DNA of 59,264 bases from Actinomycetes bacterium (GTDB taxonomy: Bacteria; Actinomycetota; Thermoleophilia; Gaiellales; F1-60-MAGs149): assembly GCA_025360225.1 (NCBI GenBank), contig JANYCN010000014.1:1-59264 (forward strand). The letters are read 5' to 3'. Shown here one piece after another: positions 36,111 to 56,398 of this stretch. Numbering within the stretch: position 1 is the stretch's first letter; the number at the start of each line of letters is the position of its first letter. The notes under the pieces were generated by a model. The model searched no databases and had not been told where the DNA came from. It saw nothing but the letters and a program-made list of their open reading frames with translations. The position numbers were made by a program, and so were the translations under genes.

Positions 36111-36113
36111 CTA

Positions 36114-36425
36114 GTGGTCTGATTGTCAAATGGCATGGTCATTGGGTGTCTGGAACGAGCGGGAGCGTTGCGCGTCGCGCAGGGCTTGCTGATCGCGGGC
36201 GTGCTGGATAGCACGCCCGCTCGCACGCGTGTCAAGGCGAAGGCCTTGACACGCTAAGTGCAAGCGGCGCGCGACGTTCCCGCGAAGCCCACGATCGGGC
36301 ACGCAGAGCGGGCCGGGGCGCGGTCGCCGGAGCTGAGCGGCGTCGCCACCCGACGGGTGGCAGAGCCGACAAGCGCAGGACGATCCAGGCAGTCGGATGA
36401 CCACGCCATTTCACAATCAGACCAC
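36114..36425 (+). mobile_element. MITE-like element, copy B (181 bp plus 131-bp insert)
   Basis: The terminal inverted repeats 36114-36142 and 36397-36425 match in 27 of 29 positions (both start GTGGTCTGATTGT when read inwards). Removing 36154-36284 leaves exactly 181 bp, the length of copy A, with roughly 90% identity by hand alignment. An internal perfect 8-bp hairpin GCCACCCG-A-CGGGTGGC lies at 36345-36361. No transposase is encoded, so movement would need one elsewhere. It sits between the 35753 stop and the CNNM gene stop at 36474. Confidence 0.8.
36159..36283 (+). ncRNA. Structured insert inside MITE copy B: three-way-junction fold
   Basis: Outer stem 36159-36178 with 36264-36283: all 20 positions pair in plus-strand RNA, 17 Watson-Crick and 3 G-U. 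Inside are two perfect hairpins: 36195-36205/36210-36220 (11 bp, loop GGAT) and 36227-36238/36243-36254 (12 bp, loop GAAG). On the opposite strand the three wobbles become A-C mismatches. No reading frame is apparent. It may be an RNA, a REP-like DNA structure or a nested transposable element; transcription is not shown by the sequence. Confidence 0.4.
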
Positions 36426-36473
36426 GAGCGTAGCCCGTCAAAGGAGGTCGGCGATGGCGCGTGGGCGAGGACG

Positions 36474-53845: not shown

Positions 53846-54712
53846 ATGCAATACAGTCAACCAGATTCACCCGGCGGTGTCAACGCGGTGTCGCAACCCG
53901 AGCGTCCCGATCCTCGTCGTGTGATCGCGAACCGGCGTGGCGATCGCTACCGCGTCGCGAGCGTCGTGCGCGCCTTGCAGGTGGTCACGCTCGTCGCGGA
54001 CGGGCCGCTCGAAGGCCTGACGCTGTCAGCGATCACCCGGTCGCTCGGTACGTCGAAGAGCACCGCCTACGCCCTCGTACGTACGCTCGTCGAGGGGGGC
54101 TACGTTCGCGCGGTCGACCCGGGCCCGCGCTACCAGCCGGGGATGGAGCTCGTCCGCCTCGGCGACGCCGCGACGCGATCGATCCCGCTCGGCCGCATCT
54201 GCCACCCGATCCTGCTCGACCTGAGCCGGGAGACCGGGCTCACGACGCGGGCCGCGATCTGCGACGACGGCTACCCGGTGTTCGTCGAGCGCGTCGACTC
54301 GCCGGGCGCGATCCGCTTCCACACGCCGCTCGGGGTACGCGAGCTGCCCCACACGAGCTCCGCCGGGAAGGCGATCCTCGCCGCGCTTCCCGCGGGAGTG
54401 ACGGAGCGCCTCGCGACCGAGACCGGGCTGCCGGAGCGGACGGCGAAGACGCTACAGACGGTCGGCGACCTCCTGGCCGACCTCGCTGATGTCCGGCGAC
54501 GCGGGTACGCGCTCGACGACGAGGAGGACGCGCCTGGCGTGTTCTGCATCGGCGCCGCGTTCTTCGATCACGGCGGCGTCGCCGGGGCGCTCAGCGCCAC
54601 CGGGATCAAGCTCGACCTCTCCCCCGACCGCGTCGCCGAGCTGGGTGCGGCCGTGCGGGCGGCCGCCGACCGCGTCTCGATCGAGCTCGGCGGAACCCCT
54701 CGAACCCCGTGA
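53846..54712 (+). CDS. IclR-family transcriptional regulator
   Basis: 288 residues. The N-terminal winged helix (about 32-95) contains RALQVVTLVADGPLEGLTLSAI and GTSKSTAYALVRTLVEGGYV. The C-terminal effector domain includes LSRETGLTTRAAICDDGYPVFVERVDS, then HTSSAGKAILAALP, the IclR signature. The start may instead be GTG at 53888, because the ATG overlaps the edge of the palindrome at 53829. Divergent from the sugar operon and followed after 16 bases by the dehydrogenase gene, it is the likely repressor of both. Confidence 0.9.
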   Translation: MQYSQPDSPGGVNAVSQPERPDPRRVIANRRGDRYRVASVVRALQVVTLVADGPLEGLTLSAITRSLGTSKSTAYALVRTLVEGGYVRAVDPGPRYQPGMELVRLGDAATRSIPLGRICHPILLDLSRETGLTTRAAICDDGYPVFVERVDSPGAIRFHTPLGVRELPHTSSAGKAILAALPAGVTERLATETGLPERTAKTLQTVGDLLADLADVRRRGYALDDEEDAPGVFCIGAAFFDHGGVAGALSATGIKLDLSPDRVAELGAAVRAAADRVSIELGGTPRTP

Positions 54713-55862: not shown

Positions 55863-56348
55863 ATGTCGGAACGCCCCATTCCCTTCGTCGTGCGGCCGGG
55901 TGACGCTGCGACGATCCAGGGCCCGGCGGGTGGGCCGCTCTCGTTCATGGTGCGCGGGGCGGAGTCGGGCGGGTCGCTGGCGGCGCTCGTGAACGTGATC
56001 GCACCCCTCGACGGACCGCCGGCACACGTCCACGCCAACGAGGACGAGTCCTGGTACATCATCGAGGGCGAGCTGCGCTTCAAGCTCGACGGCGTCATCT
56101 CCCACGCCCCCGCCGGAGCGTTCGTCTTCGTTCCCCGCGGCGTCGCGCACTGCTTCCAAAACGTCGCCGACGGCCCGGCGCGAATCCTGGTGGTCTTCAC
56201 CCCGTCTGGCATGGAGCACTTCTTCGACCGCTTCGCGGCGCTCGGCACCGGGCCGGTCGACCCGTCGGCCTTCGCCACGCTTGGGCGCGAGGTCGGGATG
56301 ACGGTGGTCGGCCCACCGCTCGCCATCTCCGACCCGCTCTCATGGTGA
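55863..56348 (+). CDS. Cupin-domain protein
   Basis: 161 residues, one cupin barrel. Motif 1 is PPAHVHANEDESWYIIEGELRF, with two His and a Glu as metal ligands; motif 2 is FVFVPRGVAHCFQNV, with the third His. Preceded by GGAGGATCGAG, a good ribosome site. Relatives include quercetin-dioxygenase-like enzymes and binding proteins; substrate unknown. A separate unit after the dehydrogenase gene. Confidence 0.87.
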   Translation: MSERPIPFVVRPGDAATIQGPAGGPLSFMVRGAESGGSLAALVNVIAPLDGPPAHVHANEDESWYIIEGELRFKLDGVISHAPAGAFVFVPRGVAHCFQNVADGPARILVVFTPSGMEHFFDRFAALGTGPVDPSAFATLGREVGMTVVGPPLAISDPLSW

Positions 56349-56360
56349 GATCGCCAGAGA

Positions 56361-56398
56361 GCATGGTCATTCGGCTGCCCGGATCGTCCTGCGCTTGC
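56361..56398 (+). repeat. Fragment of the MITE family
   Basis: GCATGGTCATTCGGCTGCCC and the following GGATCGTCCTGCGCTTG match the reverse complement of copy B (about 36367-36405) with few differences. The outermost bases of the terminal repeat are missing. It lies 13 bases after the cupin stop. Confidence 0.65.

Follow-up and report, generated by a model that had tools for sequence, protein, structure and literature searches.

A miniature transposon-like element with a conserved four-way junction fold in an actinobacterial genome

Introduction

MITEs are usually regarded as a pair of ends with meaningless filler between them, and normally only the ends are kept. RUP, a MITE linked to IS630-Spn1, is a short intergenic element with TIRs and TA targets, present in about 108 copies, and its movement probably depends on a DDE transposase supplied in trans (PMC2229807). 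NEMIS/Correia elements are also TIR-bounded and of high copy number, fold as RNA and occur in two size classes, which differ by an internal 50-bp stretch (PMC2229807). For ERIC/IRU, a 127-bp intergenic repeat, an orientation-dependent RNA role has been proposed, and CIR (CerM-associated intergenic repeat) folds as RNA into several arms, a structure that different genera have conserved (PMC2229807). With respect to target choice, PMC2170065 and its reference list (Tenzen and Ohtsubo 1991) indicate that IS630-type elements use TA targets, with a preference for those in CTAG.

Here, we describe an element of the same general kind in a stretch of 59,264 bp from an actinobacterial genome (the window). 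An earlier note on this DNA had singled out a structured 131-bp block at positions 36154–36284. We found that this block is not cargo but belongs to the element itself, forming the P2 arm of a MITE-like DNA transposon that is multicopy and non-coding.

Results

The Element and Its Copies

The full-length element (copy B) occupies window positions 36111–36428, 318 bp from TIR to TIR, and has at least 40 near-full matches in its own genome. The TIR pattern matched this genome 270 times, against one match for a reversed control. The actinobacterial genome contains more than 100 copies of the element, which is roughly 250–300 bases long; sizes range from 77 to 338 bp overall and from 245 to 319 bp for full-size copies. 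As in other bacterial MITEs, it is short, multicopy and TIR-bounded, contains no transposase gene at full size and is flanked by target-site duplications (TNA in the g16 copies, TA in the g1 and g4 copies). The parts of copy B and the other copies in the window are as follows.

36111–36428, plus strand: full-length non-autonomous element, copy B (R2 model, 121 bits, E = 3e-21)
36111–36153, plus strand: left TIR, stem P1 (CTAGTGGTCTGATTG...)
36149–36158, plus strand: inner end of P1 and junction motif, consensus CTGGAGCGAG
36159–36178, plus strand: P2 arm, 5′ strand
36195–36220, plus strand: 11-bp perfect hairpin of the putative later cassette, loop GGAT
36227–36254, plus strand: 12-bp perfect hairpin of the putative later cassette, loop GAAG
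36264–36283, plus strand: P2 arm, 3′ strand
36284–36289, plus strand: junction motif GAAGCC
36290–36323, plus strand: P3 arm (CC...GG), partly degenerate in copy B
36324–36387, plus strand: P4 arm with base TCGCC/GGaCGA, purine internal loop GNA/GNA and motifs GGTCGCCGNAG and GCAGGACGATCC
36385–36428, plus strand: right TIR, stem P1
24435–24621, minus strand: copy A, P2 arm deleted between short repeats (R2 model, 73 bits)
56339–56397, minus strand: right-end fragment of a further copy

A TIR-like match at window positions 53913–53943 is weak and probably due to chance. Many contigs of the host assembly (C1, C3, C5, C20, C22, C31, C56 and others; bases 1–160) start or stop within a copy of the element. 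Because so many contigs end inside copies, the element appears to be a main cause of assembly breaks, and its copies are probably under-counted.

Relatives and Distribution

A search for homologues, suggested in the earlier note, was carried out with a covariance model of the P2 domain (R1) and revealed many in the genome and others in further genera. Within the class (399 genomes), 3 of the 128 genera sampled were positive, and these belong to two families. The hosts are the genome under study (G000), G003 (VFJZ01, an Actinomycetota MAG) and, in another family, the MAGs G056 and G057 (JANXXF01, CANFDS01). The homologous elements of G003 and G056/G057 are 251–261 bp long; in G056/G057 the TIRs and stems are largely different, the order of the parts is the same and the length is nearly so.

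In a phylum sample of 396 genomes, only the host passed strict filters. A pattern scan of named genomes returned 30 stretches, with strong model scores only for actinobacterial MAG records. Carriage by phages was considered and rejected, since none of the three pattern matches in viral contigs was confirmed by the model. Literature searches found no described MITE of this layout.

Target Sites and Transposases

TA flanks, mostly within CTAG, were found in 27 of 54 g1 copies and 7 of 15 g4 copies, which therefore fit the 2-bp target expected of an IS630-derived, RUP-like MITE, while g16 copies have 3-bp direct repeats TAA, TTA or TGA (TNA; 7 of 12). In terms of hosts, the TA/CTAG type is found in two genera and the TNA type in the third, with the same core in all of them. 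Since the target duplication differs and the core does not, elements sharing this core seem to have been mobilised by transposases of different types. At either end of the elements of the host genome, CTCG replaces CTAG in about one quarter of copies, roughly independently between the two ends; such ends are not explained by simple TA duplication.

DDE_3 (PF13358, IS630-type) transposases are absent from the host genome, an incomplete assembly in which collapsed repeats could hide one. Neither an autonomous relative with the same TIRs (in these incomplete assemblies, searched for PF13358 transposases) nor TIR pairs spaced 1–2.5 kb around a recognised transposase were found, and the search for empty sites by joined flanks returned only self or tandem matches. 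G003 encodes three PF13358 proteins, one of them in an element with merely similar ends (CTAGTG..). It is worth noting that an IS630-type transposase element of G003 (L045/L108, contig C34, about 1168–2360) has ends, CTAGTGTCCTGTCGCGGAGAT.., which by eye partially resemble the MITE TIRs, CTAGTGGTTCGACACGGAAAT.., and this type of element is a possible mobiliser. Two further, different IS630-type transposases (DDE_3) are found at loci L106 and L107 of G003.

The Four-Way Junction

Folding of both strands of the 131-nt block gave −99.4 kcal/mol for the plus strand (z = −10.6; 0 of 200 shuffled sequences were as stable) and a weaker fold, −86.5, for the minus strand. The 20-pair outer stem (36159–36178/36264–36283) and the enclosed hairpins of 11 bp (GGAT) and 12 bp (GAAG), reported previously, were reproduced. 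At each of the three non-Watson–Crick positions in the outer stem, the plus strand has a G-U pair, which is weak evidence alone, coming from one copy. The three-way junction that had been proposed is a real fold, but only a sub-structure: the conserved junction is four-way and extends across the whole element.

An alignment of 15 elements from three genera (A3) yielded one common fold, in which the interior forms a perfect four-way junction of the TIR stem (P1) and the arms P2, P3 and P4. The conserved motifs around the junction are GGAGCGAG, CGAAGCC, GGTCGCCGNAG and GGACGATCC. P1 ends with GGA/TCC, and the junction has no unpaired bases; P2 is entered through GC/GC followed by a GA/GAA internal loop, P3 is closed by CC/GG, and P4 starts with TCGCC/GGaCGA, containing a bulged A, followed by a GNA/GNA internal loop. 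These two internal loops look like RNA motifs. As RNA, the whole element folds with −211.1 on the plus strand and −190.1 on the minus strand.

The stem sequences differ greatly among the three genera and yet remain paired. In the 51-pair junction, 92.8% of cells are paired, a percentage favoured by the derivation of the structure from folds of the same 15 sequences; the pairs changed on both sides (20 of 51 in A3) are stronger evidence. The covariation score was 0.387, compared with 0.162 for shuffled alignments (0 of 500 reached it) and at most 0.083 with slid partners, for three lineages and counted cells that are not independent. Compensatory changes beyond both controls are what is expected of a functional structured RNA, and their absence was among the conditions that the earlier note had named for rejecting its structure. 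Rfam covariance models gave no matches in the window and only chance-level scores for the element and a g16 copy; with nothing above the Rfam gathering threshold, a known RNA family is ruled out, in agreement with the previous remark that no family with this layout was known.

History of the P2 Arm

Copy A does lack the block. Nevertheless, a separate insertion or a carried cargo, as had been supposed, is ruled out by the presence of the P2 arm in most full-size copies and in all three genera, copy A being the exception. In copy A, CTGGA is directly joined to AGCCC; in another copy (L205), an independent loss of the arm has joined GGAGCGA to AGCCC. Since short repeats (GA and GCGA) flank the arm at these two deletions, the difference reflects a loss in copy A, not an insertion into copy B, and the "AA flanks" once read as an insertion signature are microhomology of the copy A deletion.

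The two-hairpin cassette is present in 36 of the 68 P2-bearing copies collected in this genome, and the remainder have one short hairpin, for example GGGCTTGC-TGGA-GCAAGTGC. The elements of G003 carry the short single-hairpin form. Because it is shared with this other genus, the single short hairpin is taken as the older form, and the cassette of two perfect hairpins as a probable later elaboration that added about 60 nt in its place. In the cassettes of L007, L024 and L029, the 12-bp hairpin has the loop variant GGCG-GTT-CGCC; it goes together with a shortened loop (GGT) in the second hairpin and marks a sub-family.

Strand Bias and Conservation

Across the three genera, the pairs of the P2 arm include 19 G-U and 3 A-C states, so the strand asymmetry of this arm is real. 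Furthermore, the plus-strand P2 domain was the more stable in 46 of 46 copies, and one G-U pair was invariant in 13 of 13 copies of two genera. The core outside P2 was not biased in this way; in the core stems of G000 copies, single mutations produced G-U in 63 copies and A-C in 67. Taken together, the bias across genera and the equality within G000 indicate that the bias belongs to the long-term lineage and not to resident copies. The plus-strand bias pointed out earlier is therefore retained for P2 over the long term, whereas RNA selection on each resident copy was not seen.

Identity among G000 copies was 0.93–0.99 in the junction and core motifs versus 0.86–0.91 in the TIRs; the copies were partly picked by their P2 arms, which inflates P2 conservation, and the GGACGATCC motif lies outside that selection. 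The GCAGGACGATCC motif, also not a selection criterion, had about 2% mismatch in TIR-chosen copies. The smallest core-less copies (L087, L090, L197, L207, L208 and L009) each have a different junction. As every one has its own junction, they represent separate deletions; amplification of a core-less copy was not observed among the unevenly sampled loci.

Discussion

At most, the data allow us to say that the fold of the interior is conserved and that elements which lost it were not seen to multiply. The element is multicopy and TIR-bounded, keeps its size and layout in three genera, and has covarying stems, conserved junction motifs and a strand-biased P2 arm.

Based on the above results, we suggest, with confidence divided about equally for and against, a non-autonomous transposon lineage whose core, folded on one strand, most probably as a transcript and possibly as single-stranded DNA, matters in cis for propagation. 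DDE transposases would act on the element in trans, at 2-bp TA in CTAG in two genera and at 3-bp TNA in the third. The folded strand would be needed in cis for continued propagation, for instance as the binding partner of a host or transposition protein. Once inserted, individual copies would decay freely, and only lineages keeping the fold would multiply. We prefer RNA to single-stranded DNA because DDE movement needs no single-stranded stage and the internal loops look RNA-like. A bolder version, offered only tentatively, is that the transposon body constitutes a structured noncoding RNA of a new class. This RNA, a perfect four-way junction in which two arms contain conserved purine internal loops, would be needed in cis or in trans for mobility whatever the transposase type. 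A DNA transposon would then depend on RNA at one step of its spread.

It is rather unlikely, in our opinion, that the structure works at the DNA level, as single-stranded top-strand DNA or a cruciform used in replication or transposition. Folded single-stranded DNA is used at attC sites and IS200/IS605 ends, and DNA hairpins tolerate G-T. The plus strand is also the best when folded as DNA (−121.0 versus −109.4), selection apparently acts on propagating copies and not on each resident copy, and the elements show no sense bias relative to host transcription. However, the TIRs and the 2-bp TA or 3-bp TNA repeats fit double-strand DDE transposition, a cruciform would favour neither strand, and IS630 chemistry, of this double-strand DDE type, does not need a single-stranded intermediate (PMC2170065).

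We consider it similarly improbable that this is an ordinary MITE with palindromic filler, in which template switching perfects the palindromes and thereby produces the compensatory changes, and whose motifs are subterminal binding sites for a transposase or host factor. MITEs are often palindromic, GGAGCGAG and GGACGATCC adjoin the inner TIR, RNA selection per copy was not seen and palindromic arms are readily deleted, as this explanation would have it. Template switching, though, would convert G-U into Watson–Crick pairs, yet P2 keeps its G-U pairs, including the invariant one (13/13); in addition, GGTCGCCG, GAAGCC and the GNA/GNA loop are at a distance from the ends, and the layout survives a change of target type.

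A cis-acting 3′-UTR element, whose fold makes insertions at gene ends harmless or stabilises or processes the flanking mRNAs, is improbable to a much greater degree. Among the 36 copies with both neighbours called (rough calls based on codon usage), 14 were convergent, none divergent, 8 co-directional and 14 opposed; in the window, 46 bp separate the full-length copy from the stop codon of a CNNM/CorC-type gene, and NEMIS and ERIC offer RNA precedents (PMC2229807). On the other hand, avoidance of promoter regions alone accounts for this placement, per-copy selection was not seen, and the orientation is unbiased in spite of the strand-biased fold. A role in read-through UTRs was accordingly rejected for lack of sense bias with respect to neighbouring genes (++ 8, −− 14, from the same rough calls).

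Finally, a guide RNA of an RNA-guided nuclease, or a reverse-transcriptase template, with its enzyme encoded elsewhere in the genome, is barely credible: structured RNAs in mobile elements have proved to be guides, a precedent that PMC11061315 gives for RAGATH-18 and IS607 TnpB, but the element has no Rfam match, and neither a TnpB zinc-ribbon domain nor a reverse transcriptase was found in the incomplete assemblies G000, G003, G056 and G057, in a search for these two domains with positive controls.

A cis-acting folded core, most probably a transcript, remains our preferred reading. In this element the ends are less conserved than the filler, which covaries across genera and persists where the target type has changed, and amplified versions lacking the core were not seen. 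The element therefore provides a concrete, testable case for a functional interior in a mini-transposon. The RNA reading, if true, would tie structured RNA to the spread of DNA transposons.

Comparison with Known Systems

The 3-bp TNA duplication recalls IS5 subgroups. In contrast to IS630/Tc1-mariner and IS5-type transposons, the element carries no transposase, and no DDE_3 transposase was found in its host; its TA within CTAG fits IS630 (PMC2170065).

Its relatives in kind are RUP, NEMIS, ERIC and CIR, none of which is described in PMC2229807 with a closed four-way junction. RUP, at 107 bp, has no conserved multi-arm interior described in that source, whereas the core of the present element persists from genus to genus and varies less than the TIRs do. 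NEMIS, ERIC and CIR are set apart by their described layouts. The stem-loop of NEMIS/Correia, formed by pairing of the ends, is processed by RNase III, with neither a four-way junction nor cross-genus covariation described (PMC2229807). ERIC/IRU, compared by its description, differs in size and layout. CIR has two arms and a linker with a GANTC motif, and its ends do not pair, whereas the element described here forms a closed four-way junction inside its TIRs.
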